A DNA stretch of 64,000 nt from assembly GCA_017472605.1 (NCBI GenBank), contig JAFUPV010000002.1:248001-312000 (forward strand). The letters run 5' to 3'. This stretch comes from Lachnospiraceae bacterium. Its GTDB lineage: Bacteria; Bacillota; Clostridia; Lachnospirales; Lachnospiraceae. The notes beneath the pieces were generated by a model, which saw only the letters and a program-made list of their open reading frames with translations, searched no databases and was not told the origin of the DNA. Made by a program: the position numbers and the translations under genes. This document shows, piece after piece, positions 13,412 to 22,186 of this stretch; position 1 is the stretch's first letter, and each line of letters begins with the position of its first letter.

Positions 13412-13461
13412 TTGACAGTTGAGGGAATTTCCTTTTAAGAAAATCGGGGTTGTATTATAAT
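13412..13461 (+). promoter_or_regulatory. Candidate promoter(s) of the two-XRE gene
   Basis: TTGACA at 13412-13417 has TAAGAA 18 bases downstream (13436-13441). A second option is TATAAT at 13456-13461 with a weak TTTTAA 17 bases upstream. The ATG is at 13495. Confidence 0.45.
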
Positions 13462-13494
13462 AACCCTATAACTAAAAATGAAAGGACGATGCCT

Positions 13495-15222
13495 ATGACC
13501 CTCAGTAAGCGCTTAAATCAATATCTTGAGCTACTTAACTGTTCCGCCAGGGAACTGAGTGAGGCTTCCGGCATTTCTCCTGCTGCGCTGAGCCGCTACC
13601 GTTCCGGTGAACGTGTCCCGGACCCGGAAAGCGCCAATTTTGAAAAGTTAATACACGGGGTCGCCCTGCTTGCAGAGAAGCGCGGGCTGACCGAAATCAC
13701 CAAGGAATCGATACGAACCGAGCTGCTAACCGTATCCGACAAGAAGAATATCGATTTTCCAACCATGGCCGCCAATTTCAACCGACTGATCTCCGTTCTG
13801 CAGATCAACCTGAATGAGCTGGCCAAAGATTTAAATTTTGATGCGTCATATCTTTCCCGTATCCGCTCCGGTCAGCGGCGTCCAGCCGACCCGGAAGCGT
13901 TCGCAGAAGGTGTGTGCCGTTTTGTTCTGCGCCGCTACTCCAGAGAAACCGAAAAGCATTCCATCGCCGATCTCATCGGCTGTACCTCCGACGACACCGT
14001 TTCGATGCAGACCCTGTTCCAGTGGCTTTGCACCGGAGCAACCGAAACAGACGACTATGTGGGTAACTTCCTGCACAGACTGGACTCCTTCGACATCAAC
14101 GAACAGATTCCGTCCGATCGCCTGGAAGCGCTGATGCCGCCGTCTGCTCCGTTTCCCTTACCGCCATCCAGGAACTACTATGGCATTGAAGAAATGCAAT
14201 GCGCAGAACTGGAATTTTTCCATTCCACCGCCTGTTCCCCTTCCAGCGAACCCGTTTTCATGTGCAGCGATCTTCCTGGCACTGCTGTCACCGATGAAAC
14301 CGGATTTTCCGGCAAATGGACAACAGGAATTGACATGCTTCTGAAAAAAGGTCTTCACCTGAACATGATCCACAACATCGAACGTCCCTTTAAGGACATC
14401 ATGCAGGAAGTAGAAGCCTGGATTCCGGCCTACATGACCGGTCAGGTCTCCCCCTACTATCTGAAAGGATCGCAGAACCACATTTACTGCCGCCTGAACT
14501 ATGTTTCCGGCAGTGTTGCACTCAGCGGTGAATGTATCTCCGGTTTCCACGAAAAAGGAAAGTTTTATCTGACCTGCGATCCGGAAGAAACCGCCTACTA
14601 TAAAGAAAAAGCGGCTCACCTTCTTTCCAAGGCACTGCCGCTGATGGACATTTACCGTCTGTCCTCCCGTACATCCTATTCCTCTTTCCTGAAATCATCG
14701 GCTCTCGAACGGGGAAAACGACACAACATCCACTCCAGCCTTCCCATCTACACGATTCCGGAAGAGCTTCTGGTGCGGATCCTGCGTGAAAACCAGATCA
14801 CAGACGGCGAACGGGACATGATCCTGACCTACGCGGCCGAGCAGCGGGAGCTGATCAAGACAGTCCTGAAAAACGACCTGATCCTTGACGAGATCTGCGA
14901 ACTGTCCGCCGAAGATTTTGCCGCCTCGCCGTTGGCGCTGTCGCTGGCAGACCTGTTCCTGGAAAAGGAAATCTTCTATACTTATGAGGAATATCTGGAG
15001 CACCTGCGCCACACAAGACAGGTCGCTCAGAACACGCCGAACTACTCGGTCAAATGCAGTTCCACCCATGTGTTCAAAACCATCCGCATCTCCATTCTGG
15101 AAGGAAAATGGGTGCTCATTTCCAAGTCCACCTCGCCGGCAATCCACTTCGTGATCCGGCACCCGAAAATGCGCAATGCGCTGGAGAACTTTATTGTTCC
15201 AGCGGCTGAGCAGACGATATAA
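13495..15222 (+). CDS. Protein with two tandem XRE-type HTH domains and a large unknown C-terminal part
   Basis: A 575-residue protein. HTH 1 (about 3-45) reads LSEASGISPAALSRYRSGERVP and HTH 2 (about 90-135) reads LAKDLNFDASYLSRIRSGQRRP; the two have the same layout, so an internal duplication is likely. The rest (about 150-575) contains no motif I recognise and no membrane helix. AAAGGA precedes the second of two nearby ATGs by 8 bases, so 13495 is preferred to 13489. It probably binds DNA as a regulator; partner and target are unknown. It ends in a very strong hairpin. Confidence 0.75.
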   Translation: MTLSKRLNQYLELLNCSARELSEASGISPAALSRYRSGERVPDPESANFEKLIHGVALLAEKRGLTEITKESIRTELLTVSDKKNIDFPTMAANFNRLISVLQINLNELAKDLNFDASYLSRIRSGQRRPADPEAFAEGVCRFVLRRYSRETEKHSIADLIGCTSDDTVSMQTLFQWLCTGATETDDYVGNFLHRLDSFDINEQIPSDRLEALMPPSAPFPLPPSRNYYGIEEMQCAELEFFHSTACSPSSEPVFMCSDLPGTAVTDETGFSGKWTTGIDMLLKKGLHLNMIHNIERPFKDIMQEVEAWIPAYMTGQVSPYYLKGSQNHIYCRLNYVSGSVALSGECISGFHEKGKFYLTCDPEETAYYKEKAAHLLSKALPLMDIYRLSSRTSYSSFLKSSALERGKRHNIHSSLPIYTIPEELLVRILRENQITDGERDMILTYAAEQRELIKTVLKNDLILDEICELSAEDFAASPLALSLADLFLEKEIFYTYEEYLEHLRHTRQVAQNTPNYSVKCSSTHVFKTIRISILEGKWVLISKSTSPAIHFVIRHPKMRNALENFIVPAAEQTI

Positions 15223-15223
15223 T

Positions 15224-15268
15224 AACACCCCATGATACCAATCAATCGAACTGGTATCATGGGGTGTT
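15224..15268. terminator. 17-base perfect inverted repeat, probable terminator
   Basis: Arms 15224-15240 and 15252-15268 (AACACCCCATG... / ...CATGGGGTGTT) pair perfectly around an 11-base loop. It starts one base past the stop codon of the two-XRE gene. Downstream T-richness is weak on the plus strand. Confidence 0.65.
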
Positions 15269-15328: not shown

Positions 15329-15721
15329 TTACTGTGACCATGTTCCTTTTATTCTATAATCCTCATACGCTCCAACAACTGCCGGATATGCAGATAAACA
15401 ATACGACTGTTCCACACCTCCATATCCTGTGTTCCACGTAAATGTACTTTTTACTGTATTACTCTTTGCAATAACATTGGTAGCCCGTATCGAACTTTTC
15501 TTTTGCACTGAAATGAAATAGTTTGTTGAAATGGTAATTAGTCCCGGTTTTACATATGCATTTCCAGACTCAATTTTCTGATAAAGTTCCGTAGACTGCA
15601 TACTTCCGGGCAACGGATACGGAATTTGCATTTCGTAGTCACGTGCAAATACCATGGTAGAGCAGGTAATCATCACCAAAAGTGCAGACAACACAGAAGC
15701 CAAACGCCATAAACGTCTCAT
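15329..15721 (-). CDS. Small secreted protein B, paralog of the 19.5 kb protein
   Basis: A 130-residue protein with a signal peptide (MRRLWRLASVLSALLVMI..., cleavage near VFARD). The mature part shares a long pattern with the protein at 19276-19674: YEM.IPYP..GS.QST, KSNT.KSTFTW, GYGGV, YCLSAYPAV and a KG.WS end. One Cys lies in the mature part. It is the last gene of the ABC operon, after the ATPase, with an AAGGAGG site. The size and secreted nature recall DUF2712-type and lactococcin-972-type proteins, but I cannot prove membership. Confidence 0.75.
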   Translation of the reverse strand: MRRLWRLASVLSALLVMITCSTMVFARDYEMQIPYPLPGSMQSTELYQKIESGNAYVKPGLITISTNYFISVQKKSSIRATNVIAKSNTVKSTFTWNTGYGGVEQSYCLSAYPAVVGAYEDYRIKGTWSQ

Positions 15722-15793
15722 AAAATTCCTCCTTATCTATTTCAGTTGCCTACTCGCAAGACAACTATATTTTCTCTCATTATTACCTGACAA

Positions 15794-16432
15794 TCACTTC
15801 TTACGACTAAACAAATGCCCTCCATCCATCTCATATACAGTATCACATAACACCTCAATATCCTCTGCGTAATGAGATGACAGCAATATTGTTTTACCCT
15901 CCTTCTTCAATGCCAACAGCAGTTCACGAATATCCTCAACCCCCTGCTTATCCAGACCATTCATCGGTTCATCCAGGATCAACAGTTCCGGATTCTCCAT
16001 AATCGCCTGCGCAATTCCAAGGCGATGCCGCATACCAAGCGAATATGTTCCAACATGCTTTTTTTCCTTTGGATCAAGTCCTACAAGCTTTAAGGTTTCA
16101 ATAATCCGTTCGTCTGCAATACATTTCTTAATCGATGCCAGAAGTTTCAAATTCTTAAATCCACTTACAGAGCCAATAAATCCGGGATCTTCAATAATAA
16201 TTCCTATATCCTGCATTACTGCCGGATTTACTTTCTTTCCATTTACAATGATTTCTCCTTCATCCGGCTTCATAAATCCACAAATACACTTGAACAAAAC
16301 GGTCTTACCGGAACCATTTCTCCCGATTATTCCGTGAATTTTTCCTTTTTCAAACGTAACTGTCACATGATCTAATGCAATCATCTGCTTAAATCGTTTT
16401 GTCACCCCTTTTACAACGATCATTTCATCCAC
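15794..16432 (-). CDS. ABC transporter ATP-binding protein
   Basis: A 212-residue ATPase with Walker A GRNGSGKT, signature YSLGMRHRLGIAQA, Walker B LLILDEPMNGLD and the switch His in LLSSHYAED. It resembles the ATPase subunits of bacteriocin-immunity and antimicrobial-peptide exporters. The GTG at 16432 is chosen: GGAGG lies 9 bases upstream, inside the end of the permease gene, and the permease stop is 2 bases away. An ATG three codons in is the alternative. It powers the two permeases encoded just upstream. Confidence 0.9.
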   Translation of the reverse strand: MDEMIVVKGVTKRFKQMIALDHVTVTFEKGKIHGIIGRNGSGKTVLFKCICGFMKPDEGEIIVNGKKVNPAVMQDIGIIIEDPGFIGSVSGFKNLKLLASIKKCIADERIIETLKLVGLDPKEKKHVGTYSLGMRHRLGIAQAIMENPELLILDEPMNGLDKQGVEDIRELLLALKKEGKTILLSSHYAEDIEVLCDTVYEMDGGHLFSRKK

Positions 16433-16434
16433 AG

Positions 16435-17313
16435 CTACATACCTCCGTCTGTAAGCATAATATCCTTTTTGCAGAATCCACAGCATCCTGCTGCTGCAAG
16501 ACATACAATTACAATCACATAAATCAGAACCGCTCCCTGTGGCTTCTGGGAGGTTCCTATATCAAACCAGTCCAGATAACTGATGCAGCTCCAATTCACA
16601 GGTGAAATGCAGTACATCCACTCCCCATAAGATAAGCGTCCGAGATAGCAGGAAAAATAAGCAAACGATGTCAGCGCCCCACAGATTGATATACCGCTCA
16701 TCTTTCCAAAGTGAATATGAAAACACAGGATAATCATTCCACACATCGCAGCACAAAGCCAGAACACTGCAATTGCTGTCGCCATTGCAAGCTTCGGCGA
16801 TATCAGTTCCATAATTGCCGCATAGGGAGCAAATGCCTGGTTTGCACCTGCCAGCCGAAACACCTCCGGGCTGGATGCGATTGTATATAATGCCTGTCCC
16901 CATTCCGCTTCATAAGCAACACACGGGCTTATTATCAGCAGGGAACAGGCGCAATTCCATAATGTATAGATGAAGGAAGATACAAGAATTGTTATTACCT
17001 GACCAATAATCCAATTTCTTTTTCCAACCCTTATCATAACAAATGGTGACTGCCTGTCCCAAAAAGGAGCCTTACAAAACAGAAGAATCGCTAATGCTCC
17101 ATAGATAATGAACAAAGTGGGAGAGCCAAGAAAAAACGGAAAAACCCATGGTGATACCGTAATCTCCAAATACTCACAGATTAAAGGAATACTGTCAAAC
17201 GTGTAGTAATGAAAAATAAAACAAATGATATATACTGTTAATACCCGGATACTCGTAAATTCCTTTCTCAGACTCATGCCAACACATAAACAAATCTTTC
17301 CTGCGCTATTCAT
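16435..17313 (-). CDS. ABC transporter membrane subunit 2
   Basis: A 292-residue integral membrane protein with about six hydrophobic helices (near 25-45, 65-90, 105-130, 165-190, 200-225, 250-275). There is no recognisable enzymatic motif. The ATG overlaps the previous permease stop by 8 bases (ATGAATAG), so the two are translated together. It is similar in size and layout to permease 1, and presumably pairs with it to form the channel for the ATPase. Confidence 0.82.
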   Translation of the reverse strand: MNSAGKICLCVGMSLRKEFTSIRVLTVYIICFIFHYYTFDSIPLICEYLEITVSPWVFPFFLGSPTLFIIYGALAILLFCKAPFWDRQSPFVMIRVGKRNWIIGQVITILVSSFIYTLWNCACSLLIISPCVAYEAEWGQALYTIASSPEVFRLAGANQAFAPYAAIMELISPKLAMATAIAVFWLCAAMCGMIILCFHIHFGKMSGISICGALTSFAYFSCYLGRLSYGEWMYCISPVNWSCISYLDWFDIGTSQKPQGAVLIYVIVIVCLAAAGCCGFCKKDIMLTDGGM

Positions 17314-18082
17314 GCAGCAACCGCCTCCTCACATTAATTCCTGCAAGTACTCCCATTATCACGCATAATGCCAATGATATTCCAATCTTAATTATTATCG
17401 TTTCTCCTGCCGTATCTGCATAATACATTCCGCTGTTCCAGTTAATCGGATCCAAAGCTGCCGGTAACGGAAGTCTCCCTGTAATGCGAAGCAGAAAAAA
17501 ATAGAGTACAAGCGGTGCTGCCGCTGCCGCAAATGGATCCGGTATCATAGAAGAGAACCACATGCTGCACACGGAAGTTAAGCCCCCCGTTATCCCATGA
17601 TGAATCATATATAGAAGCATTCCAATTATTTCCATATTTTGATCTGCCAGCAGCTCATACGGTGAATCGGAATACATAAATGTATGTATCGGAAAAAACG
17701 GGAGCAATAGAATTGCAAACAGTGCAATTCCAATAAACACCACAAGAAAGCCCGACAGAAAGCTGATCGCCACCTTTGAAAATACATACAGATTCACGCC
17801 AGTACGAACCATCCAGAAACGTTCTGCTTTCTGCATCCATTCACTGGCATAACTGATTCCGAAAGCAAATACCGGCAAAATGCAGAAAATCAAAGTGGTC
17901 GTTCCACTTCCCTGAATTGATAAATCCATCAGATACCAGACAGATGCATTTTGTGTCTCCATACCGCCAATTGCCATTAGCATCATTCCTGCAACCCCAA
18001 GGATCCCGACCATGAATCCCCATGAAGTAACTGCCCGTTTCAAGTCTGTCAGGAGCACTTGCTTTAATCTCCAGAAATTCAT
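17306..18082 (-). CDS. ABC transporter membrane subunit 1
   Basis: A 258-residue membrane protein with about six predicted helices, including a first helix in SWGFMVGILGVAGMMLM and a last in IGISLALCVIMGVLAGI. The ATG at 18082 has GGAGG 5 bases upstream; an ATG five codons earlier (18097) lacks a ribosome site. It follows the secreted-protein gene by a few bases. The substrate is unknown; operon context suggests a peptide or protein made by the operon, or defence against one. Confidence 0.82.
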   Translation of the reverse strand: MNFWRLKQVLLTDLKRAVTSWGFMVGILGVAGMMLMAIGGMETQNASVWYLMDLSIQGSGTTTLIFCILPVFAFGISYASEWMQKAERFWMVRTGVNLYVFSKVAISFLSGFLVVFIGIALFAILLLPFFPIHTFMYSDSPYELLADQNMEIIGMLLYMIHHGITGGLTSVCSMWFSSMIPDPFAAAAAPLVLYFFLLRITGRLPLPAALDPINWNSGMYYADTAGETIIIKIGISLALCVIMGVLAGINVRRRLLHE

Positions 18083-18099
18083 CTCTACCTCCGCCATTA

Positions 18100-19224
18100 C
18101 TATTCGACTGCCGTAAGCATCTGTTCACCTGTGACTGCGTTTACTACAAAATGTTCATATTCCTTTATGGTAACCAATTCCCCATTATCAGGATCTTCCC
18201 ATTCTTTTTCCCTTGCAATACAAAAGATCCAGGCCGGAATCAACTGCAATTCTTCTTTTTTTACATATATTACATAATTCAACTCCATTGATTCTATATA
18301 AACAGGAGTGACATTTATTTGCTTCTGCAGATTCTTAATCAATAATTCTTCTGCAGCCTGCGGTGAAAGCAACGCTTCCTCTTCGCCTTCCTCTATCACC
18401 TCAACCGCTCCCCACATTAATAACTGATTCAATCCATCTTCCGAAATCAGTGCCTGAATCCTTGTTTCTGCAATGACATTCTGTACAGATTCATTCCATT
18501 TATGGTTTACCAGCGGTATTCCATTAATAATCTGAGATCCATAAATCAGATACGCTTCTTTCTCCGCCATTTTCGCATCTGCATCCGGATGTCTCTCAAC
18601 ATATATTTTACCATGTTCTTCAAGCGTTTTCACATCCAATGCATACACTACATCAACTTCTATATCAATGTCTGTTAACTCACTGTTCAATTCTTCTATA
18701 TATTTTACTGCGTCCTGCAGATCCTTAAACCCCAGCGATACGTTTGTCTGAAAATCTGCCCGGTTTTCATATCCGTATAGCTGTTCTACAATCCCTGCAT
18801 GCCATGAATTCACAGCAACCTGACAACTATAGTTGTTACTTGCTTCCCCATTGTTTTCAAAGAGAGCATAAGAAAAACCTCCATAAATTCCGCTCTCCGC
18901 TCCATTTTCATAAATCGTTAACACTTCTCTTGAATACGCATCTGCATTCACATCTGCCCGCTCCGCATATATTGTTCTGCCAAACGCATTGTCACCCTCA
19001 CCTGTAATCTGCATTGTCATCAGAGTCTTCAACATCTCCTCATCTGTTTCATACCATTTCGCTTCATAGCATGATGCATATTCCGGGGCATCTATCTCAC
19101 TGAGCTGATACTGAAAAAAAATGTTTTCTAACTCTCTTTCTAACTGTTCTACCGGAATACTGCAAGACTTCCCCATGCACACGAAAGCGATCATTCCTGC
19201 TGCTGCGCAATTCCATCCTCTCAT
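18100..19224 (-). CDS. Secreted or membrane-tethered protein of unknown function
   Basis: A 374-residue protein. A short N-terminal hydrophobic segment (AAAGMIAFVCMG) suggests an export signal, possibly a lipoprotein with Cys near residue 17, but the lipobox is not canonical. The C-terminus (YVKKEELQLIPAWIFCI, then FVVNAVTGEQ) resembles the ending of PepSY/YycI-like domains. It lies between secreted protein A and the permeases, so it may be an accessory or sensor subunit of the ABC system. The family is not recognised with certainty. Confidence 0.7.
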   Translation of the reverse strand: MRGWNCAAAGMIAFVCMGKSCSIPVEQLERELENIFFQYQLSEIDAPEYASCYEAKWYETDEEMLKTLMTMQITGEGDNAFGRTIYAERADVNADAYSREVLTIYENGAESGIYGGFSYALFENNGEASNNYSCQVAVNSWHAGIVEQLYGYENRADFQTNVSLGFKDLQDAVKYIEELNSELTDIDIEVDVVYALDVKTLEEHGKIYVERHPDADAKMAEKEAYLIYGSQIINGIPLVNHKWNESVQNVIAETRIQALISEDGLNQLLMWGAVEVIEEGEEEALLSPQAAEELLIKNLQKQINVTPVYIESMELNYVIYVKKEELQLIPAWIFCIAREKEWEDPDNGELVTIKEYEHFVVNAVTGEQMLTAVE

Positions 19225-19275
19225 CGTTCATCTCCCGTTTTATTGTGCAGGCTGCGAGTCTGCCTGCAGATATAA

Positions 19276-19674
19276 TTAATTGGACCATACCCCTTTCACT
19301 ACATAAGCATCATATTCTCCATTTACTGCTGGATATGCTGACAAACAATAATGATTACCCACTCCACCATATCCTTCATACCATGTAAATGTACTCTTTG
19401 TCGTGTTGCTCTTTGTAATAATATCCGTTGCAAGAGTCTGACTATCCCCCCATGGTGATACAAAATACTTCGTTGCAATTGTATTAATGCTTGGTTTAAA
19501 ATAAGCAGCACCGCTTGTATCTTTTACATAAACTGGCGTAGACTGTAAACTTCCTACGTAGGGATATGGAATTGTCATTTCATAGGAACGTTCTGTTGCA
19601 AAGACAGGCACAGACATCAATATCAATGCTCCTGTCATTCCAATTAGGCTGATTTTTCGAATGTTTCTTCTCAT
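19276..19674 (-). CDS. Small secreted protein A, first gene of the ABC operon
   Basis: A 132-residue protein with a signal peptide (MRRNIRKISLIGMTGALILM, cleavage near VFA-TE). It is a paralog of the protein at 15329-15721; both share YEM.IPYP, KSNT.KSTFTW, YGGV, YCLSAYPAV and KG.WS, while differing widely elsewhere. There is a single mature Cys. An AGGAGG site precedes the ATG. It is the first gene after the promoter at 19788-19816. The two paralogs bracket all the other genes of the operon, which suggests they are its product or partner. Function is unknown. Confidence 0.78.
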   Translation of the reverse strand: MRRNIRKISLIGMTGALILMSVPVFATERSYEMTIPYPYVGSLQSTPVYVKDTSGAAYFKPSINTIATKYFVSPWGDSQTLATDIITKSNTTKSTFTWYEGYGGVGNHYCLSAYPAVNGEYDAYVVKGVWSN

Positions 19675-19787
19675 TCTTCCTCCTATCCGCAGATATTTAC
19701 TCGCTCAATATCCGCATTCTTTTTTGTATATAAAAACTGTTTGCTCAGTTTCTATCGTATTATTCACATTAACTTTTATTTATTCAT

Positions 19788-19816
19788 ATTATAATAGCCG
19801 CTATTTTTAAAGTAAA
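19788..19816 (-). promoter_or_regulatory. Promoter of the secreted-protein/ABC operon
   Basis: On the minus strand TTTACT (19811-19816) and TATAAT (19788-19793) with an exact 17-base spacer. The -35 box lies inside the left arm of the 21-base inverted repeat. The leader to the first ATG is roughly 105 bases. Confidence 0.65.
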
Positions 19817-19870
19817 TGACGTAGAGCTCCAATTTTTAACGACTTTTTTGAGCTCTACGTCATTTACTTT
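19809..19870. promoter_or_regulatory. 21-base perfect inverted repeat between divergent promoters (candidate operator)
   Basis: Arms 19809-19829 (AAAGTAAATGACG...) and 19850-19870 (...CGTCATTTACTTT) are perfect reverse complements around a 20-base AT-rich loop. Each arm ends in the -35 box TTTACT of one of two divergent promoters. Because both flanking genes point away from it, it is not a 3' terminator. It is the natural binding site for a dimeric regulator of both promoters. Confidence 0.7.
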
Positions 19871-19891
19871 AATTACTTTATACATTAAACT
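19863..19891 (+). promoter_or_regulatory. Promoter of the small peptide gene
   Basis: TTTACT (19863-19868) and TAAACT (19886-19891), spacer 17. This mirrors the minus-strand promoter on the other arm of the palindrome. The ATG is at 19937. Confidence 0.5.
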
Positions 19892-19936
19892 AATGGCACA
19901 TTTTGCAAATCACATTTACATAGGAGGATATTTCGT

Positions 19937-20161
19937 ATGAAAACAAAAACGCGTAACCACTTATTCCTTACAGGCTGTGCACTTCTTTCTTCCGCCTGCA
20001 TCGGACTTGCTTTTCATGCAGCTGCAGCTGTTTCATCTGCCGAGTTTGACCGTGAGCGGGATTTTACAGTCGAAGAAACAACCGCAGAAGAACTGGTAAT
20101 TGTTCCACCTTTACCTGAACTTCAGCCACACGGTGATAGAGGTCCTAAGGACAACCAGTAA
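19937..20161 (+). CDS. Small exported peptide precursor, candidate pheromone
   Basis: A 74-residue protein with AGGAGG 9 bases before the ATG. A basic start (MKTKTRN), a hydrophobic core and a cleavage-like AAAA mark a signal peptide ending near residue 31. The rest is an acidic linker (FTVEETTAEEL) and a Pro-rich tail ending HGDRGPKDNQ. A signal peptide, a spacer and a short tail is the layout of exported pro-pheromones such as PapR or NprX, which are sensed by TPR-type regulators. Its 3' end overlaps by 17 bases the end of the convergent HTH/TPR-like gene. A simple small secreted protein remains possible. Confidence 0.7.
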   Translation: MKTKTRNHLFLTGCALLSSACIGLAFHAAAAVSSAEFDRERDFTVEETTAEELVIVPPLPELQPHGDRGPKDNQ

Positions 20162-22100
20162 TTGATTCCACATATTCATACTTACTTTTTCTCGCCTGCA
20201 GAAAAAGAAGAAATTCCCGATTCCCTTCCAGTAATGCCTTATGCCAGGACAACGCAAAGAAATGAGTGCTGCTTTCCTTCTGAAAATCTCCCCGTTTCTC
20301 AATCTCCTTCAAATCCCAGGCGATTTCATACAGTGCTTCTGCCATTCCTTTTCCACAGCCAAGCATCAGCATCATTTTCAGGATTTCGTCACTCAATGAA
20401 ATCGCCTCCTGCGTCTTCCCAACAGCGCCAACCTTATTTGCCAAATTGTTCAAAATCATTTCCAGATAACGCAATGGATACTTCTGATTCACCTTCCGCT
20501 GTTCCAGATTCTGTCTGCACTTTTCATAAAGCGTAATCGCCTCCTCATCCCGTTCCATCATTTCATAATAAATGGCAATGGCATTAACCAGAACCACCTC
20601 ATTCCGCGTCAGGAATGTACGATCCCAATTAATATCCGGGTAACCCGGCAGCGTCATCCGCAGCAATTCCAGATATCGCTTCTCCATCGCCTCATCTGCC
20701 TTGATCCGATATCGCTGCTTCTGTACCGTCATTTCATAGCACTGCAGCAGCTGACGATTCACCACGCTGTTCAGATCCAGTTCCCGCTTCCAGCACCGGA
20801 TCTGTTCCATTGCCGCACCTGGCTGCCACGTTCCCAGATGCGTTCCCAGCTTCCAAAACCGCATCACAGTCTCCACCTGGTCACTTTCAACAAGAAGCCA
20901 GATTTTCTTCGACTTCATCCCCAGACGCTCCAAAAGCTTCATCACCGTACTCCATCTCAGACGAAGCTTTCCCGATTCAAACCGGGACACAGTCTCTGGC
21001 TCCACAATCCCGTCACTCAATTGCCGCTGTGTCATTCCCAGGCTCACCCTGCCCCGCTTCACAGCTTCGCTGGCAAGAATCCCATTCTCCATCGTCATCA
21101 TCGGATAAATTCCATAGGGATTTTCCCCATATCTCTGATACAGTTCCAGCAAACAGTCTCTTTGCGCTTCCAGTTCGTTCCTTGATGTGGAATATCCGCT
21201 CCCTTCCTGCCAGTTCTCCAGCATAAAATCCATCAAAGCCACTTCACCGCGCAGACTGTGCGCCTCAGCCAAAAGTTCCATTGCTTCTGCGCACAGAGCA
21301 AAAGCGATATTCCGATTTCCCTCAGCTGCTTCCAGCTGCGCCAGGTATCGAACTGCATAGGGGTAAATCTTTACCTGTTCTTCCAACTCCTGTTCATGAT
21401 GACCACGGTAATTCCAGATACGGTACAAAAGCGTTTTCGCCTCTCTTCTCTTGCCCTCTGTCTCATAAACATGTGCGGCAAGCATCAGACATTCCAGTTC
21501 CATTGCAGACAAAAACGGCCACTGTTCCTTCTCCATCAGTGCTTCAAACGTCTCTGTCCGCAAGAAGCTCCATGTTTTCTCAATCTGTTTCCTCCGCTCA
21601 TTTCCATTACCGGATTCGGAACTCGCTGCCGTTTCTGCCAGCAGCAAATATGCTTCCATCATTCCGGAAAAGAACTGATGAACCGAACCGTCCGAAACAA
21701 ACCGATCCCCCAATTTCTTCCAGCTGGACTGATAGCGCCTGACTGACAAATACCCCTCTTTCACCAAATCCGGTACCTTTTCCAGCTCCCGCTTCCGGTA
21801 CAGCTGTTCCAGAATCTGATTCACCTTACAGCGAATTTCCATCCGCTGGTCATACAGTTCCAGCTCCTGATCGGATATGTAGCACTCATAAAAAAGGCTA
21901 GAGAGCCCCGCGCGCGCCAGCAGAAAGTCCATCGTCATCTTATCTGCATGTTTTATTCCCTCTTCCAGTTTCTGCAGCACATTCCCGGATACAATTCCTG
22001 CGCCAAAATCTTCTCTTGAAATTTCATGTTCCCTGCGAAACCGTCGGATCAGTCTTCCCAGTGTATATTCTTCCAATGATGACACCCCATTCTTGTGCAT
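20145..22100 (-). CDS. Large XRE/TPR-like transcriptional regulator (RRNPP-like) with two HTH segments
   Basis: A 651-residue cytoplasmic protein. HTH 1 (about 15-67) starts LGRLIRRFRREHEISREDF. A helical, repeat-like stretch follows. HTH 2 (about 349-395) has LGMTQRQLSDGIVEPETVSRFESG, a canonical XRE helix pair. Another helical region with TPR-like helices (EAITLYEKCRQNL; TQEAISLSDEILK) ends the protein. Such HTH plus TPR proteins are peptide-binding regulators in Firmicutes. A promoter at 22110-22138 makes the ATG at 22100 the first start after it; a TTG at 22076, with GGGGTG upstream, is also plausible, while upstream readings begin inside the promoter. Confidence 0.8.
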   Translation of the reverse strand: MHKNGVSSLEEYTLGRLIRRFRREHEISREDFGAGIVSGNVLQKLEEGIKHADKMTMDFLLARAGLSSLFYECYISDQELELYDQRMEIRCKVNQILEQLYRKRELEKVPDLVKEGYLSVRRYQSSWKKLGDRFVSDGSVHQFFSGMMEAYLLLAETAASSESGNGNERRKQIEKTWSFLRTETFEALMEKEQWPFLSAMELECLMLAAHVYETEGKRREAKTLLYRIWNYRGHHEQELEEQVKIYPYAVRYLAQLEAAEGNRNIAFALCAEAMELLAEAHSLRGEVALMDFMLENWQEGSGYSTSRNELEAQRDCLLELYQRYGENPYGIYPMMTMENGILASEAVKRGRVSLGMTQRQLSDGIVEPETVSRFESGKLRLRWSTVMKLLERLGMKSKKIWLLVESDQVETVMRFWKLGTHLGTWQPGAAMEQIRCWKRELDLNSVVNRQLLQCYEMTVQKQRYRIKADEAMEKRYLELLRMTLPGYPDINWDRTFLTRNEVVLVNAIAIYYEMMERDEEAITLYEKCRQNLEQRKVNQKYPLRYLEMILNNLANKVGAVGKTQEAISLSDEILKMMLMLGCGKGMAEALYEIAWDLKEIEKRGDFQKESSTHFFALSWHKALLEGNREFLLFLQARKSKYEYVESITGCP

Positions 22101-22109
22101 GATGTCATT

Positions 22110-22138
22110 ATTATAAATCATATCCTCCAAAAGTGCAA
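22110..22138 (-). promoter_or_regulatory. Promoter of the HTH/TPR-like regulator
   Basis: On the minus strand TTGCAC (22133-22138) and TATAAT (22110-22115), spacer 17. Transcription would begin near 22103, close to the chosen ATG, so the leader is very short. Confidence 0.55.
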
Positions 22139-22186
22139 GTCCCCCTGCATTCCGGTAAAGATTCGGCAAAGATTTCCCATTTCTGA

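Follow-up and report, generated by a model that had tools for sequence, protein, structure and literature searches.

Gene content of the locus

We analyzed a 64,000-nt stretch of a Lachnospiraceae bacterium genome (assembly GCA_017472605.1, contig JAFUPV010000002.1, positions 248,001–312,000 of the forward strand; hereafter the window, by whose numbering all positions are given), focusing on a candidate peptide-pheromone circuit that includes a 651-aa regulator. The regulator gene (20145–22100, minus strand) and a small plus-strand gene (19937–20161) run tail to tail and overlap by 17 nt; the predicted 74-aa product of the latter, the candidate pheromone precursor, has a Sec-type N-terminus and a variable acidic and proline-rich tail. 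A minus-strand operon is divergent from the precursor gene, and one inverted repeat lies between the two. Every open reading frame (ORF) named in the original prediction of such a circuit, which was made from the letters alone, was recovered at its position and on its strand, as was the overlap.

A regulator with two PlcR-like units

Single-sequence searches with the regulator returned one clear helix-turn-helix (HTH) and weak tetratricopeptide-repeat (TPR) matches, the Pfam TPR matches falling below cut-off. PlcR was the best solved-structure match to a profile of the window regulator and twenty doubled relatives (A2; E = 3e-24). The same held when the alignment was cut into an N-half (A3; 324 aa in the window, 21129–22100, minus strand) and a C-half (A4; 327 aa, 20148–21128, minus strand, with Pfam HTH_3 at residues 348–395): PlcR (2qfc) was the best solved structure for both, over PlcR residues 1–260 for the N-half (E = 1.4e-11) and 6–285, which takes in the PlcR TPR region, for the C-half (E = 1e-23). 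The next matches of the N-half were chains titled "Transcriptional regulator" (5w4m and 4yv6), which we take to be Rgg-type, with PrgX and ComR lower down. An alignment of the two half profiles with one another covered 295 of 296 columns (E = 2.4e-48). By profile search, both halves are homologous to a solved RRNPP receptor across their HTH and TPR parts, and on this homology the 651-aa regulator is two complete PlcR-like receptor units in one chain, which would therefore carry two DNA-binding heads. The RRNPP kinship proposed in the original prediction was borne out at the level of sequence, and its "two XRE segments" proved to be two complete receptor units.

The start or leader of the regulator is uncertain, since a promoter-like TTGCAC-17-TATAAT pair (within 22100–22170, minus strand, found by eye) ends 9 nt before the ATG at 22100; an in-frame ATG 21 nt upstream is the other candidate. 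Leaderless translation was considered and dropped because most relatives have a ribosome site.

History and distribution of the doubled receptor

Relatives were examined as numbered loci (L), regions around regulator relatives picked on regulator similarity score alone. A tree of 78 units placed 25 of the 26 fused N-halves together with every one of the 6 split N-units in a single group (support 100/98), while all C-halves fell on the other side alongside 14 single-unit regulators; the exception was the L051 N-half, which sits on the C-half and single-unit side. The deep branches of this tree are long and in part open. Two-gene regulators with overlapping frames carry one unit of each kind (L081, L085, L086, L090 and L101, all in the tree), as do two further two-gene forms with overlapping frames that lie outside it (L027 and L129). 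The L078 regulator is divided by one in-frame stop and may be split or broken; its sister L077, in the same genome, is fused, and both of these sister circuits adjoin radical S-adenosylmethionine (SAM) genes. Other arrangements also occur. At L118 (968–2881) and L119 (5197–7101), doubled regulators with a convergent precursor have a first half that is more C-like and a second that is more N-like, possibly an independent doubling. L065 (5151–9347) holds two doubled regulators in succession, the second with its own convergent precursor, and L110 (2983–10346) holds five single-unit relatives in ~7.4 kb, all lying on one strand and lacking a convergent precursor.

Of 397 same-family genomes, 50 had relatives by single-sequence search (E ≤ 1e-3) and 55 had single or doubled matches by profile search (E ≤ 1e-15), the window's own genome included in both counts. 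Because the profile survey, which counts single-unit matches, scored no more than three candidates in any genome, copy numbers are minimum values. Genomes drawn from across the class gave 7 of 391 with a match at E ≤ 1e-30; full doubled-length matches came only from the window's own family. Two further genomes of the same genus had no match to the window regulator, a scan of a genome-contig collection gave no confirmed relative, and a scan of plasmids found none. Relatives also occur on unverified human fecal scaffolds labeled "Bacteriophage sp." (L128–L131; four examined of seven matching records in a phage collection), including one doubled regulator and one split pair. Among the profile-listed relatives, G164:C45, G356:C297, G053:C273, G204:C18, G068:C10, G276:C31, G373:C19, G064:C4 and G305:C1 were left out as regions, although G305 is covered as L027.

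The exported precursor and its pairing with the regulator

The N-terminus of the window precursor is basic, the protein has a hydrophobic stretch, and its gene has an AGGAGG ribosome site. Comparable ORFs were sought with a fixed filter (30–110 aa, a ribosome site, a basic and hydrophobic N-terminus, convergent orientation, and an end within −80 to +150 nt), so that export was called from hydropathy, charge and ribosome site, not from SignalP. In the first batch, 36 of 61 loci had a precursor-type ORF, with stops often overlapping by 4 nt. Leaving out five single-unit loci and three untestable ones (L084, a single unit at a contig end, and L070 and L072, with under 100 nt of flank), a convergent precursor was found at 34 of 53 testable doubled loci from 23 genomes; L065 was scored as a miss despite the precursor at its second regulator. 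In the second batch, precursors were found at L118, L119 and L127 (an N-unit plus a partial C-unit) and not at the partial L126, and 21 single-unit regulators yielded one doubtful case (L115). These two batches together gave 37 of 57 doubled versus 2 of 26 single-unit loci (p = 7.8e-7). Later loci added 3 of 5 doubled (present at L097, L101 and L129, absent at L027 and L128) and 4 of 10 single-unit regulators (L100, L103, L104 and L130; L103 comes from another family of the class). Across all loci tested, a convergent Sec-type ORF was present at 40 of 62 doubled (window included) versus 6 of 36 single-unit loci (Fisher p = 6.5e-6). As a control, convergent small neighbors within −45 to +60 nt were counted for all ORFs of at least 250 aa in L034–L093: 38 of 410 had one, and 34 of these 38 were regulators of the family studied here.

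Precursor tails vary yet hold a common core, which an earlier fit gave as about G/E, I, x, P/T/V/I, C/H/L/Q, x, D. Log-likelihoods for 37 tails exceeded those of all 50 shuffled sets, fitted with equal effort, at widths of 7 (109.4 versus 91.9 ± 3.4), 9 (143.7 versus 117.9 ± 3.9) and 12 (184.9 versus 153.1 ± 5.0), and neither these values nor the precursor counts allow for kinship among loci; the 36-aa L078 precursor was too short and was excluded. In the window, the C-terminal tail ELQPHGDRGPKDNQ (20117–20158, plus strand) is the likely source of the signal. Its candidate peptides are ELQPHGD, which fits the 7-residue motif, LQPHGDRGPKDNQ and GDRGPKDNQ. The window's genome has 8 matches to the oligopeptide-binding family SBP_bac_5 (one a fragment), making an oligopeptide importer for re-import plausible.

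The same ORF could instead be cargo: the regulator would then derive from PlcR and act as an autoregulatory repressor at the divergent promoter, and the small protein would be a secreted or antimicrobial product rather than a signal. We consider this unlikely. In its favor are an apparently exported product at a controlled divergent promoter, greatly varying tails and, at some loci, small secreted proteins on the other side as well. Against it, the small ORF stays tail to tail with this family of regulators across loci with differing neighbors, its tail core is common beyond the shuffled controls, and the regulator is homologous to PlcR, whose relatives are peptide receptors. The recurrence of the precursor–regulator pair and its upstream palindrome across many divergent loci agrees with the original prediction.

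A palindromic candidate operator

The inverted repeat between the divergent genes (19807–19872) is real, as the original prediction had held: its 26-nt arms (19807–19832 and 19847–19872) are 96% complementary and contain ATGAC cores that span 48 bp. Searches allowing up to 3 mismatches placed its 20-nt core at its own two arms and nowhere else, whether in the window (where 0 matches are expected) or in the whole 3.68-Mb genome. A candidate operon promoter (19788–19816, minus strand) has its −35 hexamer (TTTACT, 19816–19811) inside the left arm, followed after 17 nt by TATAAT (19793–19788); this is a match to consensus only, one of 3 sites found where shuffles gave 1.6.

Similar elements recur at related loci. 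Inverted repeats scoring at least 16 numbered 30 in the 21.9 kb of zones lying 80–450 nt beyond the regulators' 3′ ends, versus 28 in the remaining 838.7 kb, and 29 of 61 loci had one in this zone. A scan for two inverted ATG[AGT]C cores spanning 30–56 bp, with arms at least 75% alike, found such palindromes in the same zone at 18 of 61 loci (window included), versus 2 sites elsewhere, one of which (L063) lies 623 bp from the end of a truncated regulator; the scan is descriptive because it was shaped on the same loci. In the second batch (L108–L127) it hit L120 and L123, both without a precursor, and among the four fecal scaffolds it hit L130 and none of the other three.

The consensus of 36 arms is about ACCATGACGTTTTnGGAAAA, and the window arms match its outer block but not its inner one. 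The two arm blocks lie about one helical turn apart and might be read by two different HTH heads on one chain. Core spans were 34–43 bp at 11 loci and 47–51 bp at 7 loci, and a Rayleigh test of these spans at a 10.5-bp period (p about 0.005) is no more than suggestive. Operator similarity tracked regulator similarity across 27 loci (Mantel r = 0.43, 0 of 5000 permutations) and in a thinned set of 24 loci (r = 0.36, p = 0.0002), as expected if the regulator is the binder; one of the two L066 repeats and the L074 repeat were excluded by hand before this test, and L089 was excluded for short length.

Long inverted repeats can also fold as RNA, and loops of 0–28 nt occur among these palindromes, so we weighed whether they are terminator or leader hairpins, with the regulator and precursor linked by gene order alone. 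We consider this very improbable. In 22 of the 24 loci listed, the palindromes end 43–167 nt upstream of the precursor start (in the remaining two the distances are 4 and 216 nt), and several end, by eye, just before a −10-like element. Core letters are moreover common to loci whose regulators share only 18–34% identity, no terminator-like site was found at the window palindrome, and core spacings form two groups about one helical turn apart, a suggestive point only. We treat the palindrome at the precursor promoter as a candidate operator.

The divergent operon

Reading away from the palindrome on the minus strand, the operon encodes a candidate secreted cargo protein of 132 aa (19276–19674), a 374-aa protein that is possibly exported, with a short hydrophobic stretch (18100–19224), two ABC (ATP-binding cassette) permease-like membrane proteins of 263 aa (17306–18097, ~6 hydrophobic segments, no family match) and 292 aa (16435–17313, ~4 hydrophobic segments, no credible family match), an ABC ATPase (15794–16504, its true start probably some 70–80 nt inside this ORF) and a 130-aa paralogue of the 132-aa protein (15329–15721). 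The two small proteins are 55% identical, consistent with the paralogy noted in the original prediction.

Although the operon genes differ among loci, a divergent slot recurs. ATPase-like genes occupy it at L038, L039, L046, L056, L059, L060, L077, L078, L082 and L083; at L039, L060, L082 and L083 the slot holds a small protein whose N-terminus is signal-like, with ABC genes after it. Radical-SAM genes of the peptide-maturase type occur there at L046, L056, L067, L077 and L078 (the L056 and L077 matches clear the Pfam cut-off; the remainder are weaker, or are NCBIfam matches that fall short of curated cut-offs), with a PqqD-like protein at L078 and a ThiF and M16-peptidase pair at L058. The recurrent element is this slot, which at several loci holds an export, bacteriocin-like or RiPP (ribosomally synthesized and post-translationally modified peptide) operon, and not the window's cargo. 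The window ATPase has relatives in L034–L093 with up to 43% identity (L039), as ABC ATPases often do.

Whether the window operon is itself bacteriocin-like is, judging from its sequence, about an even call, because its ATPase is closest to the lantibiotic-protection subfamily TIGR03740 but scores 196 bits, below the 309.75-bit cut-off (a difference from LanFEG). The competing view, in which the same peptide switch controls another secreted-protein and ABC system with an envelope or stress function, falls just short of an even chance. It gains from that low ATPase score and from family searches that gave no match for the secreted proteins and none credible for the 374-aa protein; a solved-structure search with the 132-aa protein likewise gave nothing credible (best E = 0.48). 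The ATPase's best subfamily and the RiPP maturases beside some related circuits speak for a bacteriocin-like operon.

A proposed pheromone switch

Considering these features together, the locus is probably a local pheromone switch with a single-chain double PlcR-like receptor. From its layout we infer the following steps. Sec would export the precursor, and trimming would leave a short C-terminal peptide, lying within ELQPHGDRGPKDNQ, that would re-enter through an oligopeptide importer and bind the regulator in its TPR region. Each ~17–20-bp arm would be occupied by both heads of one chain, two chains would cover the whole palindrome, and peptide-altered binding would set both divergent promoters, that of the precursor (feedback) and that of the operon. 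Activation by the peptide appears the more likely sign of control. The operon would then make two small secreted bacteriocin-like proteins, along with an ABC transporter that would either export them or protect the producer.

We lean slightly toward a broader proposal, in which single-chain "double PlcR" receptors form a distinct class within one large family. The two non-equivalent units would stem mostly from one old duplication and sometimes be encoded by two overlapping genes, with one DNA-binding head each; two chains would read a 40–50-bp palindrome as a dimer of pseudo-dimers, and fast-changing local peptide codes would control private bacteriocin-like or RiPP cargo.

Several results weigh against the proposed switch. 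The strict filter found no precursor at 22 of 62 doubled loci, though a more permissive filter points to one at three or four of these (L042, L062 and perhaps L044 and L080). Single-unit relatives can have a precursor too (L088, L100, L103, L104, L130 and, doubtfully, L115), which led us to reject a strict association with the doubled form; the pairing extends beyond it and may have arisen before the doubling took place. The window tail ranks 29th of 37 on the 9-residue motif (an earlier fit), and the ATG-core operator occurs at only 18 of 61 loci, the remainder having different palindromes or none. AlphaFold models of the regulator (single sequence, mean predicted local distance difference test score, or pLDDT, 40.5) and of the 132-aa protein (two sequences, mean pLDDT 38.5) were too poor to use. 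The cargo is also nearly private. Relatives of the 132-aa protein were found in 2 of 397 family genomes (one being the window's own), with 0 confirmed in the genome-contig collection and 0 in plasmids, and on these counts no conserved cargo is claimed; the secreted proteins, the 374-aa protein and the permeases had no relatives in the 60 regions L034–L093, and several loci have unrelated-looking divergent genes (e.g., L036, L037 and L085). The gene-neighborhood conservation anticipated in the original prediction accordingly holds for the precursor and regulator, whereas the secreted proteins of the window's operon are nearly absent elsewhere, so that the refuting condition which that prediction set on co-conservation of precursor and operon is half triggered.

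Comparison with known systems

The PapR layout places an exported precursor next to the PlcR receptor. The window resembles it in that both regulator halves match PlcR along nearly the whole length, an exported precursor adjoins the receptor, and a palindromic candidate operator accompanies putatively exported target proteins. Differences include two HTH-TPR units per 651-aa chain (the PlcR PDB chain has 293 aa) and a precursor that is convergent and overlaps the regulator. The palindrome here was also found once in the genome, which points to local control and not to a scattered regulon. In the Bacillus cereus group, PlcR has exported targets and binds the 18-bp box wTATGnAwwwwTnCATAw (PMC2464732); operator cores here span 34–51 bp (48 bp in the window), and the window cores do not match that box.

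The nearest layout among the known systems compared is TprA2/PhrA2 of Streptococcus pneumoniae, in which a small peptide gene lies opposite the regulator, near ABC and lanthionine-peptide genes (PMC5436883). The window's gene layout agrees with that of these systems (TprA/PhrA and TprA2/PhrA2) in having the peptide gene opposite the regulator and beside an ABC operon, whose cargo here may or may not be a bacteriocin. The passages on TprA2/PhrA2 mention no doubled receptor, and the cargo there is a predicted lanthionine peptide, whereas the window encodes secreted proteins without a family match.

The PDB chains that we take to be Rgg-type are 280–288 aa long and not doubled. Streptococcal RRNPP receptors (Rgg/SHP, RaS-RiPP) have been linked to RiPPs (PMC13361665), with a likeness here in the radical-SAM genes beside L046, L056, L067, L077 and L078. 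SHP precursors use PptAB (PMC10075063), in contrast to the Sec-type N-termini found here.

As in the candidates of RRNPP_detector, the window pairs a TPR-like receptor bearing an HTH with an adjacent small exported propeptide. That survey keeps receptors of 250–500 aa (validated receptors 285–473 aa; PMC10075063), and because of this limit doubled receptors, at about 580–700 aa, would be skipped: the 651-aa regulator fails the rule, although each half alone (324 and 327 aa) would fit it. No fused or two-HTH receptors are mentioned in the accessible parts of PMC12700828 and PMC9765709, no open-licence paper was found on RRNPP systems in Lachnospiraceae, and none of those listed on PlcR in Blautia, on fused or tandem receptors or on Lachnospiraceae and related subjects showed a description of the doubled form, a silence that is weak evidence of novelty because only open-licence papers were covered. 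The best reading of these comparisons is that the single-chain double receptor may be a novel variation within RRNPP systems.

Doubled receptors beyond the usual length limit would bring to light many circuits not read so far. With a palindrome (often bearing ATGAC-type cores) next to a tail-to-tail small ORF, their layout offers a cheap joint prediction of signal, receptor, site and cargo, which would include cryptic RiPP or bacteriocin clusters possibly needing an inducing peptide. With two receptor units joined covalently, what each pocket of an RRNPP dimer does could also be tested directly.

Neighboring features

A second regulator gene (13450–15222, plus strand) is convergent to the operon, and its product has two XRE-type HTH segments near the N-terminus (about residues 24–61 and 114–146). 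It scores weakly with the doubled-PlcR profiles and is therefore of another kind. Between its end and that of the convergent 130-aa gene lies a perfect 17-bp inverted repeat (15224–15268), perhaps a two-way terminator.

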